21,637 nt of DNA from a virus: positions 1-21,637 of the IMG/VR virus record IMGVR_UViG_3300044701_002503; one strand, given 5' to 3'. The translations under genes and the position numbers were made by a program. The first letter of the stretch is position 1. Each line of letters begins with the position of its first letter. Shown in pieces: positions 16,058 through 21,637 of this stretch. Under the pieces are notes generated by a model, which had not been told where the DNA came from, ran no database searches, and saw only the letters and a program-made list of their open reading frames with translations.

Positions 16058-18475
16058 CTAGGAAAAGCAGTAGGGGTTGCTACCCACCAGGCCAGGACAG
16101 AGATCTCCAACCATCGGCGCCTTCTGAATCCCCTTGACCCTGCTGCGACGGCGGATCTCGCTGGTCATCAGCTGCAGCCAGTCCTCCTTGTAGAGCTCGC
16201 GCAGTTGCCGATGCAGCTCCGCGTGCAGCCACCCAGCTCGCGCTGGCACAACGCCAAAGCAGTCGTGATTCGTCAGCACTTGGGCGCCATGCACTACGGC
16301 CGTGCAGACGATGGCGTGGGCCAGGGCCGCGTCAAAGGAATGGCAGACGTTGGCCGTGATGCCGCGGTTGGTGGCGCGCGCGCTCAGCTGGTGACTGACG
16401 GCCTCCTCGCGCCGGTGCAGCTGACGCGGCAGGCCGGCCAGCGTCGTGCCGCTGCTGACGGTCCCGCTCAGCTCTGCCCCCAGCCGCATTGGCCAGCCCA
16501 TTGGCGTCGTCCACTCGATCGGTTTGTCAGCGCTGAGCACGGTCTTTGACAACGTCCGCAGCCAGCGCTGCAACGCCAGGCAGGGGCCGATCTCCTCCTC
16601 CAGCGCCTGGCGCAGCACCTTGGCCATGGCCCTGGCAGGGCGCAGCAGATCGCCCCGCACCTGCCACAGCTGCACCTGGCCGCGGCGCTCCTCAAGCAGC
16701 TCCACCAGCCCCTCCACCAGCGTCAGGTGGCTGGCCCCATAGACCGACGTCATCACCGGCGCTTTGCACATGGCCCGATCGACGCCAAGGTCCAGCCAGA
16801 ACGCAGCCATTCGCCCGGCCACCTCGCCAGCCAGCTCCACTTCCTGGCGCAGCATCCGCGTCGCGCGGTCCGCCACCGCTTGGTAGATGTCTCCCCGCGT
16901 CCCGCCGATCAGGTTGGTGTGACGCGCCAGCCGCTGATCACGCAGCAGCGCAGCCGCGATGCCAATGCCTGAGCAGGTCTGATCAAACCGGACCGGGCAG
17001 TTCAGCGGTTGGGTCGGGTCCTCCAGCCACTGCCGCACCGCCTTGGCTGCCTGCAGCAGCTGCCACGGGTCATCGGCGCCGCGCCACAGCTCCAGCCGCT
17101 CGAGCGGGTCGTCCGCAATGGCCGTCAGCAGATCCAGGTGTTGCTTGCCCCATGCCAGGCGCTCGTCCCACTTCGCCTTGCCCAGCCCCCAGTGGCCGGC
17201 AGCCCCCTTCAGCAGCCACTCGAAGCCCTCTTCCCCGCACGCCTCGCCCTGCGCAAACGACACCACGCCCTTCTCGTGGTCTGGCCCCTGGTGCGTGACA
17301 TAGCGATTGGAGCTGTAGACCCGGCCCCTGAAGTCCAGGTCGTAGGCAAACCAGATCGGCCGGCCCGCTGCGCTCTCGCACTGGCGCAGGGACTCTTCAA
17401 TGCGCAGCCGTGCGGCTCGGTTCTCGTGCTCGTCGTGCCATGCCTCGGCCTGCTGGCGTCGCCACTCCACCCAGGCGCCGCCGCCGGCCCCGTCATCGGG
17501 CTGCGGCGGCACGCGGATCGGATCACGCGTCATTGGGAACAGGCCGCGGATGTTGCTGTCCCATGCCTGGCGCTGCACCTCCACCATCCACGGGTCCAGC
17601 ACCATCGCCTGGCGCTGCAGGGCGTTGACCACCTGCAGCTGGGTGCCAAGCTCCTTGCTGGCGTAGTAGCTCAGGTCGATCGGGCTGCGGCTGCTGATCA
17701 GCGGCTGCTTGGAATCGAGGTGCCCTCCCTCTTCAACGCCAAGCCATGGCCTGGGCTCCACCAGCATCGGCAGCCGGCGGACCGGCAGCGGCCGCGGCGG
17801 GTTGGCTTTGATCAGCGCCAGCGTTTCGCGGGTGGGCTCGACGAACTGGCCCTTGCGAGGGCCCTGCACCACCTGCACCAGGCCGGTGCTGGCCACCACC
17901 AGATCCAGCAGCAGGCCGCCGACATGGAACCGGTCGTCCAGGCTCCAGCGCTCCTGGTCGCAATGCAGTTCCTGCATAACGCGCTGACTGACGGCCTCCC
18001 TGCCACGGGTGCGGCGCTTCACCTGGCGCAGCAGCAGGGCGTCGCGGCCATTGATCACCAGCGCCCGCAGCTCGTCCTCGATGTCGCGGCCGATCAGGCG
18101 TGCCACCTCCCGGTACGGGCGGCGCCGGCTGAGCTGGTCAAGCACGGCGCCGAGGGCCAGCGACGCAGCCGGCCGCACACCCCGCTCACCAAAGCGCAAC
18201 AGCACCGGCAGCGCGCAGAAGTGCGGGCCGGCTGCCGCCTCGCCCCGCGCTAGGCGTCCGACGAGGGCGTCGAGGCCGTCCGAAACGACCTGGGCGTAGT
18301 GGCGGAACAGGGTTCGGCCGTATTCGGTGGCTGTTTCACGCCCGGCAGCGAGCAGGTTCCGGCGGATGGCCTCAGCGCGTTCTTCAGAGAGCCTGCGCTG
18401 GTGCTGTTCTCGATCCTTTTCCTCTGCCCAGAGCGCTGCGGACGAAATGCTCGCTGCATCGGGCACTGCAAACAC
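16058..18475 (-). CDS. T7-type single-subunit DNA-directed RNA polymerase
   Basis: An 805-aa protein (T7 gp1 is 883). Catalytic elements are in order: motif A FDQTCSGIGIAAALLRD with D498; motif B RAMCKAPVMTSVYG with R567, K571 and Y579; HSFD at 712-715; and motif C NHDCFG with D738. These match T7 D537, K631, Y639 and D812. YDLDFRGRVYSSNRYVTHQG (about 378-397) is the conserved DFRGR segment before the palm. The N-terminal domain is shorter than in T7. It would transcribe the replication and virion genes from phage promoters. The start is uncertain: GTG at 18475, with another GTG three codons later and no visible Shine-Dalgarno; an in-frame TAA lies five codons upstream. Confidence 0.96.
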   Translation of the reverse strand: MFAVPDAASISSAALWAEEKDREQHQRRLSEERAEAIRRNLLAAGRETATEYGRTLFRHYAQVVSDGLDALVGRLARGEAAAGPHFCALPVLLRFGERGVRPAASLALGAVLDQLSRRRPYREVARLIGRDIEDELRALVINGRDALLLRQVKRRTRGREAVSQRVMQELHCDQERWSLDDRFHVGGLLLDLVVASTGLVQVVQGPRKGQFVEPTRETLALIKANPPRPLPVRRLPMLVEPRPWLGVEEGGHLDSKQPLISSRSPIDLSYYASKELGTQLQVVNALQRQAMVLDPWMVEVQRQAWDSNIRGLFPMTRDPIRVPPQPDDGAGGGAWVEWRRQQAEAWHDEHENRAARLRIEESLRQCESAAGRPIWFAYDLDFRGRVYSSNRYVTHQGPDHEKGVVSFAQGEACGEEGFEWLLKGAAGHWGLGKAKWDERLAWGKQHLDLLTAIADDPLERLELWRGADDPWQLLQAAKAVRQWLEDPTQPLNCPVRFDQTCSGIGIAAALLRDQRLARHTNLIGGTRGDIYQAVADRATRMLRQEVELAGEVAGRMAAFWLDLGVDRAMCKAPVMTSVYGASHLTLVEGLVELLEERRGQVQLWQVRGDLLRPARAMAKVLRQALEEEIGPCLALQRWLRTLSKTVLSADKPIEWTTPMGWPMRLGAELSGTVSSGTTLAGLPRQLHRREEAVSHQLSARATNRGITANVCHSFDAALAHAIVCTAVVHGAQVLTNHDCFGVVPARAGWLHAELHRQLRELYKEDWLQLMTSEIRRRSRVKGIQKAPMVGDLCPGLVGSNPYCFS

Positions 18476-18497
18476 TGCGTTTTCGGCAATTTATCCA

Positions 18498-18510
18498 CCA
18501 CACCCCCGTA
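18498..18510 (+). promoter_or_regulatory. Promoter-like motif on the plus strand, facing the integrase
   Basis: The plus strand reads CCACACCCCCGTA, 11 of 13 matches to the ssb and capsid copies, with the CCCCGTA core intact. It is in the int-RNA polymerase gap but points away from the RNA polymerase, so it would transcribe the att region and then the antisense strand of the integrase gene. Confidence 0.4.
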
Positions 18511-18525
18511 GAGCTCGCTGCTCAC

Positions 18526-18544
18526 CCAGGAAACTCAGTCCTGG
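18526..18544. repeat. Inverted repeat in the att region
   Basis: Perfect 6-bp arms CCAGGA/TCCTGG around a 7-nt spacer, between the plus-strand promoter-like motif and the tRNA fragment. Not followed by a T-run, so not an obvious terminator; possibly part of the recombination site. Confidence 0.35.
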
Positions 18545-18575
18545 CGGATGCTCTGCGGGGGTGGAGACGTGCGGA

Positions 18576-18619
18576 ACGGATTTTAAGTCCGCTGCGTATA
18601 CCAATTCCGCCATGCTCCC
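18576..18619 (-). other. Putative attP core: 5' part of tRNA-Leu(UAA)
   Basis: Read on the minus strand, 44 nt reproduce the 5' acceptor strand (GGGAGCA), D-arm (GCGGAATTGGTATACGC) and complete anticodon arm (GCGGA-CTTAAAA-TCCGT, anticodon TAA) of a tRNA-Leu. The sequence then leaves the tRNA: no variable arm, T-loop (GTTCRA) or 3' acceptor strand follows, so it is not a functional tRNA gene. It lies about 120 nt downstream of the integrase stop. As I recall, P-SSP7 has a 42-bp match to its host's tRNA-Leu gene in the same place. Int and RNA polymerase both flank it, which is the unintegrated arrangement. Confidence 0.75.
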
Positions 18620-18620
18620 G

Positions 18621-18635
18621 CCTTCCGCCGGAAGG
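18621..18635. repeat. Inverted repeat adjoining the tRNA fragment
   Basis: CCTTCCGCCGGAAGG is a 15-nt perfect inverted repeat (6-bp arms, 3-nt centre) touching the 5' end of the tRNA-like segment. Its position suggests an integrase or accessory-protein site at the att core, but it could equally be a hairpin in a transcript. Confidence 0.4.
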
Positions 18636-18684
18636 GATCTCAGCGATTTGGGGTGCTGCCACCGCTGCTTTGTTAAGCATCAAT

Positions 18685-18704
18685 CGGCAGCGCCCCGGCA
18701 GCGC
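18685..18704. repeat. Tandem direct repeat CGGCAGCGC x2, 11-bp period
   Basis: Two exact copies at 18685-18693 and 18696-18704, one helical turn apart, between the integrase stop and the tRNA fragment. Spacing by one turn is what arm-type integrase binding sites often show. Confidence 0.35.
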
Positions 18705-18716
18705 CAAGCGGTTCCG

Positions 18717-18730
18717 GTGGATGCGTCCAC
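18717..18730 (-). repeat. Small hairpin after the integrase gene
   Basis: Perfect 5-bp stem GTGGA/TCCAC with a 4-nt loop, 10 nt past the integrase stop. No T-run follows, so a terminator role is weak. Confidence 0.25.
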
Positions 18731-18740
18731 AGTACGGGCC

Positions 18741-19739
18741 TCAGCCCTCGATCGCTGCCACGCAGGCCGTCAGCTGGTGCGTCTGCAGGTGCATGTAGCG
18801 CTGCACCGCAGCCAAGCTGCGCCAGCCCCCGTAGGCGGCGATCTGCTGCAGCGGCACGCCGGCCTGGGCCATGCGGGTGGCGCCGGTGTGGCGGGTGCAG
18901 TGGATGGTGAGCTGCTCGTCGTCAGCCAGCCCTAGAGCGCCCTTGGCGCGGTTGAACAGGTTCTTGGCCCGCCAGTACGGGTAGCCCCAGATCCGCTGCC
19001 GTGGGACGGCTGGCACGTAGGCCTCGAGCACGCTGCAGGCCTTGGGTCCCACCGCAATCGTGCGCGGGTGGCCGTTCTTGGTCTTCCAGAACGTGATCAG
19101 CCCCTTCTCCAGGTCGACGTCCTCACCGCGCAGGCGCTCGGCCTCGCCCCAGCGGGCGCACGTCAGGGTGAGGAACACCAGCAGGTCGGCGAACTCCGGT
19201 TCGTTGATCTCCCGGAAGAACGCGCAGAACTGCTCGAGCTCCTGCTTGGAGATCACCCGGTCCTTGGTGTTGGTCACCCGTATCTGCTGCGGGATGGGCG
19301 GCAACGCCTGAATGTGGCCATGCAGGGCGGCGTCGTTCAGCATCGAGCGCAGGCACGACACCTTCCGGTTAACGGTGCTGGGCTGGTTGCCCTGGGCCAG
19401 CAGGTGCTGGCGCCAGCGCTCAATCTCAGGCGCTCCGATGGCGCCCAGCTGCACGGAGGCCCCGAAGAACTCGACAGCGTGGCGGCTGTAGATCCCCGCG
19501 GTGCGCTCCCAGCTGGTGCCCTTCCAGCGGATCCGCAGGGACAGCTCCCTGGCGTCGCGGATGGTGATGCCGGTGCCCGTGCTGCGGTTGGCGGCGGGCC
19601 TGCTGGCCAGGTGCTCGAGCAGCTCCTTTTTCTTGGCCAGGGCTTCGTTGCGTGTCTTGGCGCGGCGGGTGCGACGGACGCCGTCGATGGTGACGTCAGC
19701 GACCCATCCGTCCGCGGTGCGGCGAACTGATCCAGACAT
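18741..19739 (-). CDS. int: Tyrosine recombinase (phage integrase)
   Basis: A 332-aa protein with the full catalytic set: R196 (CARWGEAERL), K221 (KTKNGHPRTI), H280 and R283 (HCTRH), W306 (YGGWRS, in place of the usual His, a common variant) and nucleophile Y315 (VQRYMHL). The N-terminus (MSGSVRRTADGWVADVTIDG) looks like an arm-binding domain, and residues about 68-155 like the SAM-like core-binding domain. It would recombine the tRNA-Leu-like site just downstream with the host gene. There is no Shine-Dalgarno; the leader is C/A-rich and carries GACCAACCACC, which overlaps the stop of the upstream regulator gene 18 nt away. Confidence 0.95.
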   Translation of the reverse strand: MSGSVRRTADGWVADVTIDGVRRTRRAKTRNEALAKKKELLEHLASRPAANRSTGTGITIRDARELSLRIRWKGTSWERTAGIYSRHAVEFFGASVQLGAIGAPEIERWRQHLLAQGNQPSTVNRKVSCLRSMLNDAALHGHIQALPPIPQQIRVTNTKDRVISKQELEQFCAFFREINEPEFADLLVFLTLTCARWGEAERLRGEDVDLEKGLITFWKTKNGHPRTIAVGPKACSVLEAYVPAVPRQRIWGYPYWRAKNLFNRAKGALGLADDEQLTIHCTRHTGATRMAQAGVPLQQIAAYGGWRSLAAVQRYMHLQTHQLTACVAAIEG

Positions 19740-19748
19740 GGTGGGTGT

Positions 19749-19759
19749 GGTGGTTGGTC
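19749..19759 (-). promoter_or_regulatory. Shared leader motif GACCAACCACC before int
   Basis: Minus-strand GACCAACCACC, 9 nt before the integrase ATG, overlapping the TGA of the upstream gene. The identical 11-mer precedes the genes starting at 21364 and 21589. The full leader is almost free of G and has no Shine-Dalgarno, so the motif may be a translation-initiation or RNA-binding element. Confidence 0.5.
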
Positions 19760-20078
19760 ATTGGATGCCCTCCAGCTGCTTGAGAACGCGCTTGCCCTTG
19801 GCACTGAGTCGCACCAGGAAGCGGCGGCCTTCGCCGGGGTCCTTGTAGGCCTCAACCAGGCCCAGGCCAGGACGCCCGTCCTCGCGCTCGTCGGAGAGCG
19901 ATTGAACGCCCCGGGACACCGAGGCATTTGAGCTCACAAGTCGCTCCTCGAGCTCCTTGTAGGTGATGGGGCCGTGTACGGCGATCTCCAGGAACAGGCG
20001 GATGCGATGCGCCGGCAGCTGGTCAGGGTCCAGCGTTTTGAAAACGTCCAAAGCCCGCGCCAGTTGATCCAGATCCAC
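19758..20078 (-). CDS. MarR-like winged-helix regulator next to int
   Basis: A 106-aa protein from a GTG at 20078 (MDLDQLARALDVFKTLDPDQ). LPAHRIRLFLEIAVHGPITY-KELEERLVSSNASVSRGVQSLSD is a helix-turn-helix with helices at about residues 35-65, followed by a wing (GLGLVEAYKDPGEGRRFLVR) and the closing LSAKGKRVLKQL typical of MarR proteins. It is shorter than free-standing MarR (about 140 aa), lacking much of the dimerisation helices. It ends 18 nt before int, so the two are probably co-transcribed. A 26-bp palindrome 13 nt upstream of the start is a natural autoregulatory operator. It may control integrase or early genes; the ligand is unknown. Confidence 0.8.
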   Translation of the reverse strand: MDLDQLARALDVFKTLDPDQLPAHRIRLFLEIAVHGPITYKELEERLVSSNASVSRGVQSLSDEREDGRPGLGLVEAYKDPGEGRRFLVRLSAKGKRVLKQLEGIQ

Positions 20079-20091
20079 GGCCCAGGGTCTC

Positions 20092-20117
20092 GTACGAGTG
20101 TCCTAGGACTCTCGCAC
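20092..20117. promoter_or_regulatory. 26-bp near-perfect palindrome (putative operator)
   Basis: The central block GTCCTAGGAC is perfect and the outer arms GTACGAG/CTCGCAC pair at 6 of 7 positions, so 11 of 13 symmetric pairs match overall. It is centred at 20104/20105, 13 nt from the GTG of the MarR-like gene. Size and symmetry suit a dimeric winged-helix repressor. It sits in the 145-nt gap 20079-20223, the largest gap in the early block, where I see no convincing sigma-70 promoter or extra gene. Confidence 0.6.
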
Positions 20118-20223
20118 AGGTGGAGAGAAAGCCTGACCCTGTCAGCGATCTGCTCCTGATACACCGCAACGTGCCGCCACGACTCGAGAGCTGGAATCTC
20201 GATCGAAAGCAATAAAGCAACCC

Positions 20224-20604
20224 TCATGACTCGTGCTCTCCAGCCGTGTTGACGGGAACGAACGTACTACTGATCAGCTGTAACGCGTCGTCCGTCAGCC
20301 TTAGCTGATAGCCGCTGCGGTGTGGGTGGTTGGTTACAGACACCAGGCCGATTGTGCTCTCAATCCAGCGGCCGTTCTCCAGCCGGCCGCGGCCGCGCAG
20401 CAGCGACAGCGTGCGGCTGGCCTGGCCTGTGCTCATGCCCATCACGCGCTGCAGGTCAGTGACGGTGTCAACGCCCTGGGCGATGTGCAGCAGGGCCTCC
20501 ACTGCCGCCAGCGGGATGCCGGAGTCGACGGCGCTGCGCTTTGAAGCGCGTCTGAGGCCGCCCAGCAGGGCTGCAACGGCTTCCGGTGTGGCAGCGCGTG
20601 TCAT
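20224..20604 (-). CDS. Second winged-helix (MarR-like) regulator
   Basis: A 126-aa protein whose ATG overlaps the preceding stop (ATGA). IPLAAVEALLHIAQGVDTVT-DLQRVMGMSTGQASRTLSLL (about residues 30-70) is a helix-turn-helix with a recognition helix at STGQASRTLSLL. GLVSVTNHPHRSGYQLRLTD looks like a wing, and the following DALQLI is the usual MarR-type ending. Sequence similarity to the other regulator is low apart from the fold. With int and the first regulator it forms a likely lysogeny-control group. Confidence 0.72.
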   Translation of the reverse strand: MTRAATPEAVAALLGGLRRASKRSAVDSGIPLAAVEALLHIAQGVDTVTDLQRVMGMSTGQASRTLSLLRGRGRLENGRWIESTIGLVSVTNHPHRSGYQLRLTDDALQLISSTFVPVNTAGEHES

Positions 20605-20897
20605 TGGCGCCTCCGTGCCTTGGCGGGCCGGCAGAGGGCCTGCACGACGCGCTCCCGATTGATCGGGGTGTCCTCGAGCTTGTGCGCGGTCAGGTGCATC
20701 TGGATCAGCTGCTCAACCCGCGCCCGTTCGGCCATCACGCGACGGCGTCTGGCGGCGCGTTCGCTGTTGGGCCGGCTGTAGTCCCACAGCAGCCACAGCG
20801 GCCACCAGATAACGCCCAGCAGCGGCGCCACCAGCACGGCCAGCAGCATCACCGCCAGGCCACCGCCGATCAGCAGCACGGCAGAGGTGTCACTCAT
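20601..20897 (-). CDS. Small membrane protein (98 aa)
   Basis: Begins MSDTSAVLLIGGGLAVMLLA. Residues about 6-39 are strongly hydrophobic (one long or two short membrane segments, with a WWPLWLLW stretch). They are followed by a basic, helix-prone cytoplasmic-type tail (ERAARRRRVMAERARVEQLI) ending KARRRQ. It overlaps its neighbours on both sides by 4 nt. No family recognised. Early small membrane proteins of phages can affect host envelope, superinfection or lysis, but nothing here specifies which. Confidence 0.65.
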   Translation of the reverse strand: MSDTSAVLLIGGGLAVMLLAVLVAPLLGVIWWPLWLLWDYSRPNSERAARRRRVMAERARVEQLIQMHLTAHKLEDTPINRERVVQALCRPAKARRRQ

Positions 20898-21103
20898 GCG
20901 GCCTCGCTCTGCAGCTGTGCGTTGCGCACCTTCAACAGCGCGCTATTGGCGGCCCTGAGCTCGTCCTGAGTGCGACACCAGCTGTCGTCGCCCGGTTCGA
21001 GCGACTGGATCTGCACCTCGAGCAGCTCACCCAGCAGGTGCGCGCGTGGCCGCAGCAGGGCCACCAGTAGATCCGCCTCGCGGCGGTTGATCTTCAGATC
21101 CAT
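20894..21103 (-). CDS. 69-aa hypothetical protein
   Basis: Begins MDLKINRREADLLVALLRPR and is predicted helical throughout, with regular leucines (LLVALLRPRAHLLGELLEVQ) that suggest a coiled-coil or helical hairpin. It starts 3 nt after the preceding stop (TGACCCATG) and overlaps the next gene (ATGA). No family recognised. Confidence 0.6.
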   Translation of the reverse strand: MDLKINRREADLLVALLRPRAHLLGELLEVQIQSLEPGDDSWCRTQDELRAANSALLKVRNAQLQSEAA

Positions 21104-21106
21104 GGG

Positions 21107-21364
21107 TCAGGCAGCAACGGGAACAGGGCGACGGGTGCGGCGTTTGGCCGCGGCTTTGGGTTTCGCAGCGGGTGTGGGTTGTTTCGGCTTGGCGGGTTCC
21201 TTATGCGGTTGTGGTGTGGGCCGCCAGCCGGCCAGCAGCAGGGCCGTGGCGATGGCGTGGGCCAACACCGGGCGCAGCAGCAGGGCCAGGGCCTCGAGGG
21301 CCAGCCCAGCCCATACAAGGGCGGAGAGCAGTAGATCGCACTCCGCGGGTGTGGTGTTTTTCAT
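21107..21364 (-). CDS. Small membrane protein with basic Pro/Lys-rich tail (85 aa)
   Basis: The ATG at 21364 (MKNTTPAECDLLLSALVWAG) is preferred over a longer opening because the shared GACCAACCACC leader ends 4 nt upstream. Residues about 10-61 are hydrophobic (LALEALALLLRPVLAHAIAT then ALLLAGW, one or two membrane segments). The C-terminus is a low-complexity KPKQPTPAAKPKAAAKRRTR tail that could bind nucleic acid or membrane phosphates. Function unknown. Confidence 0.62.
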   Translation of the reverse strand: MKNTTPAECDLLLSALVWAGLALEALALLLRPVLAHAIATALLLAGWRPTPQPHKEPAKPKQPTPAAKPKAAAKRRTRRPVPVAA

Positions 21365-21368
21365 GGTT

Positions 21369-21401
21369 GGTGGTTGGTCGGGGAGAGGGCACAGAGCCCT
21401 C
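21369..21401 (-). promoter_or_regulatory. Hairpin plus GACCAACCACC leader before the 85-aa gene
   Basis: A perfect 6-bp hairpin GAGGGC/GCCCTC (21385-21401) is followed after 5 nt by GACCAACCACC (21369-21379), which ends 4 nt before the ATG. The same hairpin-then-motif order is seen before the gene at 21589. No Shine-Dalgarno. Confidence 0.5.
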
Positions 21402-21409
21402 CGCACTGG

Positions 21410-21589
21410 TCAGCGCTTCGCCTCCATTGCGGTTTCGATCAGGTGCGCGCAGAGGTTGGACAGGCTGCGGCCCTGCTCAAGCGATGCCGCCAACACCCGC
21501 TCGTGCAGGGTGTGGCTGAGGGTGACGCAAACGCGTTTCGGTGAGCGCTTGGCGCGTGCCAGGCGATCACGCAGGGAGAGAGGTTCCAT
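21410..21589 (-). CDS. Ribbon-helix-helix (CopG/Arc-like) DNA-binding protein, 59 aa
   Basis: Translating the minus strand from the ATG at 21589 to the TGA at 21410 gives 59 aa beginning MEPLSLRDRLARAKRSPKRV. CVTLSHTLHERVLAASLEQG followed by RSLSNLCAHLIETAMEAKR fits the ribbon-helix-helix pattern: a short beta strand (RVCVTLS), helix A (HTLHERVLAASLEQG), a turn (RSLS), and helix B (NLCAHLIETAM). The basic N-terminal arm is like those of Arc/CopG repressors. It is first in the visible early block and carries the hairpin plus GACCAACCACC leader, so it may regulate the early genes. Confidence 0.72.
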   Translation of the reverse strand: MEPLSLRDRLARAKRSPKRVCVTLSHTLHERVLAASLEQGRSLSNLCAHLIETAMEAKR

Positions 21590-21601
21590 GGTTTGGGCCT
21601 C

Positions 21602-21628
21602 GGTGGTTGGTCGCTGGGTGAACCCAGC
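21602..21628 (-). promoter_or_regulatory. Hairpin plus GACCAACCACC leader before the RHH gene
   Basis: A perfect 6-bp hairpin GCTGGG/CCCAGC with a TTCA loop (21613-21628) directly abuts GACCAACCACC (21602-21612), which ends 12 nt before the ATG at 21589. Third copy of the motif and second of the hairpin-motif pair. Confidence 0.5.
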
Positions 21629-21637
21629 AGGGAAGGG

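Follow-up and report, generated by a model that had tools for sequence, protein, structure and literature searches.

A short A/C-rich leader, often capped by a hairpin, tends to stand just upstream of the early genes in a clade of integrase-bearing T7-like phages, several of which are tied to freshwater cyanobacteria. We consider it probable, with moderate confidence, that this element serves as a hairpin-capped translation-initiation cassette of early genes that works independently of a Shine-Dalgarno (SD) sequence. At the sequence level this reading is supported by the repetition of the element, its restriction to one strand and one region, the near-absence of SD sequences, the covariation of the leader-proximal hairpin (H2) and the prediction that the leader is open; for the translation step and for the hairpin's role, the inference is drawn from precedent.

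The analysis started from a 21,637-base IMG/VR virus record, which was taken at its full length and is called the window below. The 11-mer GACCAACCACC occurs exactly three times without mismatch in the window, in each case on the coding (minus) strand. The relevant features are the following:

18741-19739, minus strand: tyrosine integrase gene (int), leader-bearing (PHROG integrase, 1.8e-51)
19749-19759, minus strand: leader copy 1, GACCAACCACC, before int, 9 nt from the ATG at 19739
19758-20078, minus strand: gene of a MarR-like regulator (gp0.7 type), without leader; homologs in 24 of 25 related loci searched
20325-20335, minus strand: 10/11 match, AACCAACCACC, in the gene of a 126-aa winged-helix protein
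21107-21364, minus strand: gene of an 85-aa protein, leader-bearing, no family match
21369-21379, minus strand: leader copy 2, GACCAACCACC, before the 85-aa gene, 4 nt from the ATG at 21364
21385-21401, minus strand: hairpin of copy 2, GAGGGC-TCTGT-GCCCTC, 5 nt 5' of the leader
21410-21589, minus strand: gene of a 59-aa ribbon-helix-helix (RHH) protein, leader-bearing (Pfam RHH_5, 1.5e-9; PHROG Arc-like repressor)
21602-21612, minus strand: leader copy 3, GACCAACCACC, before the RHH gene, 12 nt from the ATG at 21589
21613-21628, minus strand: H2 hairpin of copy 3 (GCTGGG-TTCA-CCCAGC), directly adjoining the leader; in relatives it holds this position and covaries
21629-21637, minus strand: probably the 3' arm of a hairpin further upstream (H1) that the contig end truncates, as judged from relatives

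An earlier note on this DNA had reported three exact copies 4-12 nt from their ATG codons and perfect 6-bp hairpins with different stems upstream of the last two; copies, distances and hairpins were all found again. Its statement that none of the three leaders has an SD sequence is largely right, except that a weak SD-like GAGG is present in the RHH leader (-12 to -9). The int copy shares nucleotides with the stop codon of the MarR-like gene (TGACC) and has only a weak 4-bp stem upstream. For the partial H1 at the end of the window, L262:6883-6927 (GGAGGGGGTTCGCCCCTTCCCTG) served as comparison. The 10/11 match, which the note had regarded as probably coincidental, is probably due to chance and lies outside the system. 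Among the other early genes of the window, the one for a 69-aa protein (20894-21103) has relatives in 18 of 25 related loci.

About 20 different, partly overlapping 11-mers are present at least three times on one strand of the window, compared to 1.7 expected from first-order simulations. Since three-copy 11-mers are not rare, the significance of GACCAACCACC within the window rests on its position before three starts. Taken alone, the evidence from the window is weak to moderate, and it is the relatives that supply the statistical weight.

Relatives were picked by similarity of the RNA polymerase (RNAP) alone and not by the motif. The nearest isolate in the phage collection was Synechococcus phage S-SRP02, a freshwater phage from Singapore isolated together with its host strain, whose RNAP and integrase are 47% and 59% identical, respectively, to those of the window. 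In S-SRP02 CCCAACAACCACCACC precedes the DnaN-like gene, two more early genes and int. An integrase search placed relatives of the window's int in Cyanobium MAG contigs and in other MAG contigs, an RNAP search of GTDB genomes returned no relatives, and plain pattern scans of IMG/VR gave many unrelated contigs among the matches. The earlier note had named absence of the motif from other early genes and from relatives as the outcome that would speak against it; the motif was present in both. In the RNAP-selected relatives, several copies per phage precede early genes and int, and at least two copies of a lineage-specific version were counted by hand in 15 of the 16 contigs with some 4 kb or more of sequence upstream of the polymerase gene, which thus cover enough of the early region. 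GACCAACCACC is the version of the window's clade; CCAACAACCACCACC and CAACAACAACCACC are those of the S-SRP02 clade, ACCAACCACCAACC is found in L265/L266 and L279, and CCCAACCACCACC in L284.

In the window, S-SRP02 and the RNAP-selected contigs, to which these counts were limited, copies on the early strand outnumber those on the other strand by 100 to 2, and 91 copies lie in the 130 kb upstream of the RNAP start, whereas 3 lie in the 295 kb from RNAP onward. A control with reversed patterns was discarded, as these overlap the motif itself. The patterns used to collect the copies had been drawn from the same set of sequences, and the list includes loci found by the motif (L156, L188, L228, L238, L246 and L257); copies within a phage or in near-identical contigs (e.g. 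L269-L271, L274/L278) are not independent, and gene starts in uncultured contigs are predictions. Inspection of more distant phages revealed ACCAACCAACCAACGGACT in MedDCM S38-C3, CCACGACAACAACACC in S31-C1 and three copies of CAACCTCACCCC in L301. LUZ100, P-SSP7, S-CBP1 and S-TIP37, likewise inspected, showed no obvious repeated leader.

An out-of-sample prediction came from a 42.5-kb contig, L300, which had been binned in a Sphingomonadaceae MAG and whose int leader reads ACCACCTACCACC. The string CACCTACCACC, derived from this leader, occurs at 10 places in the 3.4-Mb assembly, nine of them on the phage contig, on the forward strand. Their positions (16, 1519, 1529 and 38434-42021) correspond to the early region of the contig, which probably closes on itself. 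Read backwards in the same assembly, the string gave 3 and 3. The copies at 41379 and 42011 have both H1 and H2 upstream. The prediction of further early-region copies from the int leader of L300 thus held.

The leaders consist of 53% C, 36% A, 7% G and 4% T (89% A+C). An SD match was found in 3 of 92 element genes as opposed to 12 of 17 late genes of S-SRP02; 86 of the 92 start with ATG, and the codons after the start are often ACC, ACA or GCA. Leader and start codon are predicted to be open, with an unpaired probability of 0.72 vs 0.40. SD-type pairing with 16S rRNA was also considered and rejected: with the 16S rRNA of a Cyanobium MAG, five leader types paired no better than their own shuffles. 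Three roles had been proposed in the earlier note, an unstructured ribosome landing site, the target of an RNA-binding protein or small RNA, and a transcript-start cassette; openness and SD counts give the best support to the first (for the last, see below).

A perfect Watson-Crick stem of at least 5 bp, ending at most 6 nt from the core, was found in 43% of the 92 distinct copies, the corresponding figures being 10% for random positions within these loci and 8% for shuffles; 52 of the 92, including several int copies and the int copy of the window, lack such a stem. When the last 9 nt were exchanged among copies, the number of stems fell from 39 to 10.3 ± 2.9 (maximum 22 in 200 swaps), which shows that each copy tends to pair with itself. 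In an alignment of nine H2 copies, chosen for clean register and thereby favouring structure, 98% of the cells were paired, nine cells carried double changes, and none of 500 shuffles reached the score; a second aligned set, of four copies, pointed in the same direction. That the structure is kept while the bases change, noted earlier for two hairpins, is thus borne out by covariation across copies. TCA was present in 22 of 39 loops (9% in control hairpins), and in 11 of 39 copies H2 has H1 immediately 5' of it (8% in controls), several H1 loops being of the UNCG type (TACG, TTCG, TCCG). No RNA family scored above the Rfam gathering score in window positions 18000-21637. Intrinsic terminators were ruled out as an identity of the hairpins, which run into A/C-rich sequence with no U-run after the GC-rich hairpin.

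In the cassette that we envisage, the transcript would read, in order, an optional H1 (often with a UNCG-type loop), H2 (5-7 bp with a variable stem and commonly a YUCA loop), the leader and the AUG. The leader, G-poor, A/C-rich, single-stranded and with a lineage-specific core, often followed by A/C-rich codons after the AUG, would be an SD-independent landing site at which S1 or the 30S subunit binds unstructured A/C-rich RNA, in the manner of an ACA-type enhancer. The hairpin might shield the leader from pairing with upstream RNA, protect the 5' end of a processed early mRNA, or both. Early and late genes would then start translation differently, the late ones mostly by SD. As for precedents, unstructured start regions suffice without an SD according to one report (PMC3121790), and ACA motifs enhance translation, an ACAA repeat being cited as promoting it without an SD (PMC3879156). 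Three observations weigh against this reading: a landing site alone needs no near-identical cores within one phage, more than half of the copies (52 of 92) have no perfect stem of at least 5 bp, and the leader need not replace the SD, as look-alikes in Pelagibacter phages have one downstream. In these phages, whose RNAP is about 23-25% identical, a similar H1-H2-CAAC architecture is seen: AATCAACAATCAAC precedes several early genes, in some cases behind a GACTTT...AAAGTC hairpin, with an SD before the ATG (L292:1029-2370, L295:1388-2065, L297:1357-2236).

Because copies within a phage have nearly the same core while lineages have different ones, the main rival is a sequence-specific RNA regulator. 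The element would then be the target of a phage RNA-binding protein or of a G/U-rich, GcvB-like sRNA, H2 and its YUCA loop would belong to the recognition site, and the early genes would form a post-transcriptional regulon. Conservation of the loop on a variable stem is consistent with such a target, as is the fact that the core type mostly tracks the RNAP tree, and GU-rich sRNAs naturally target leaders rich in CA (PMC3879156). However, core type B is shared by L265/L266 and L279, the latter inside another clade, and copies could also become alike through gene conversion or simple repeat expansion. In addition, a scan of early proteins of the window and S-SRP02 detected no RNA-binding domain, and the opposite strand of the window has no motif match at up to 2 mismatches. 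Taken together, we regard a regulator of this kind as unlikely. A phage-wide RNA regulon in which H2 and the lineage-specific A/C core form one module, recognised by a phage- or host-encoded trans-acting factor that co-evolves with the core and switches early-gene translation on or off, late genes having ordinary SD sequences, is a tentative possibility. If it existed, the H1-H2-CAAC architecture of the Pelagibacter phages would point to a strategy, either old or convergent, that integrase-bearing T7-like phages have in common.

The tandem arrangement of H1 and H2 would also be compatible with a signal for RNA processing or transcript 5' ends, where cleavage or initiation at the hairpins would provide every early gene with a separate mRNA that carries a hairpin at its 5' end, the leader being the resulting 5' UTR. 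A promoter-like sequence, recognised by eye, lies within about 120 nt before the first, DnaN-like copy in several relatives. It was seen only before that copy; most copies lie between genes of the same direction, inside a co-directional gene string and with no obvious promoters of their own, so that the transcript-start role of the earlier note is not supported for the majority. Moreover, processing leaves the A/C-rich core near the AUG and the missing SD unexplained, and stems as short as 5-7 bp are poor substrates for RNase III. We consider this explanation quite improbable.

Asymmetric repeats in one orientation near gene starts are reminiscent of the stoperators of L5 and other cluster A mycobacteriophages, which show an orientation bias, and genes for MarR-like and winged-helix proteins accompany nearly every element-bearing locus. 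An operator or stoperator acting at the DNA level, bound by a phage repressor (the MarR-like, winged-helix or RHH protein), is nevertheless very unlikely, because the stems covary while their bases change, which points to RNA, and because a separate palindrome upstream of the MarR-like gene is a better operator candidate; furthermore, a search of 25 loci found RHH homologs in only 12. This perfect palindrome, TCCTAGGA, stands upstream of the MarR-like gene in both the window and S-SRP02 and occurs at one further place in each phage (window 20101-20108 and 16056-16063; S-SRP02, L293, 10057-10064 and 13598-13605), where 0.1-0.2 would be expected; it is a candidate operator of the MarR-like regulator. 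Chance, i.e. C/A-rich stretches in a high-GC genome, might account for repeats in the window alone, given its many three-copy 11-mers, but almost certainly not for the restriction by strand, region and start codon in RNAP-selected relatives or for the prediction that held in L300.

The closest described system is that of the start-associated sequences (SAS) and extended SAS (ESAS) of cluster K mycobacteriophages (PMC3203893). Like the element described here, SAS is an asymmetric repeat 3-7 bp before the starts of non-structural genes, in one orientation and with many copies per phage; an inverted repeat lies upstream of about half of the copies, and its consensus differs between subclusters. 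In contrast, the SAS core GGGATAGGAGCCC contains an SD (AGGAG) and can pair with 16S rRNA, and the inverted repeats of ESAS are 17-mers with a conserved sequence, in which deviations lend no support to an RNA hairpin (PMC3203893), whereas here the stems vary and covary. The present element thus shares the start-proximal placement in one orientation but neither the SD-containing core nor the conserved non-hairpin inverted repeat, and was not assigned to SAS/ESAS. The cluster A stoperators are likewise asymmetric repeats, of about 13 bp (PMC3203893), but act in the regulation of transcription, unlike what the covarying hairpin suggests here. The ACA-motif or CA-rich enhancers silenced by GcvB (PMC3879156) resemble our leaders as A/C-rich, single-stranded elements near the start codon, a likeness that composition and predicted openness bear out; they stand beside an SD in single host genes, whereas here a repeated, hairpin-capped phage cassette with a putative function is concerned. 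TAACTGA heptamers of Beggiatoaceae and some cyanobacteria, for which a post-transcriptional binder was proposed, are also short repeats just before starts and mostly without SD; according to the available part of the report (PMC4679880) they differ in sequence, belong to bacterial genomes and are described with no hairpin, whereas the lineage-specific cores of the present element are confined to phage early genes.

The main text of the S-SRP02 paper (PMC8790148) does not mention promoter, terminator, Shine-Dalgarno, ribosom-, motif or leader, and a limited literature search, mostly outside subscription journals, found no description of this element. A hairpin-capped, SD-free leader of early phage genes therefore looks like an undescribed way of starting genes. 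Cyanophages mimic the SD usage of their hosts, according to a comparison based on S-SSM6a and S-SSM6b (PMC6847405); if our preferred reading, the SD-independent start cassette, is true, the leader-bearing early genes would be an exception to this. In a cyanophage clade, a start signal free of SD and capped by a hairpin would then mark the early genes, the late genes mostly using SD, and the division between early and late would extend to translation. The element is compact, can be tested in S-SRP02 and is of use for annotating early genes of uncultured phages and for locating the true starts of these genes.

Some further sequences near the element deserve mention. A conserved TTGTTACAGAT together with a CTCCAC...TGGAG palindrome is found 40-110 nt before the first (DnaN-like) copy (L277:5000-5156, L271:3810-3967, L262:5850-6015 and relatives), a candidate promoter and operator as judged by eye. 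The copy beside the divergent maturase/terminase gene is accompanied by a separate, longer hairpin, one arm of which, GCAGAAGGG, is conserved (L016:9316, L271:2495, L284:2741, L322:2435); this copy may also serve the divergent gene. Finally, just downstream of int, a stretch on the minus strand of the window (18558-18625) resembles the 5' half of tRNA-Leu(UAA); its Rfam tRNA score of 25.8 bits is below the cut-off and ARAGORN detected no complete tRNA in it, and the stretch is a candidate attP.
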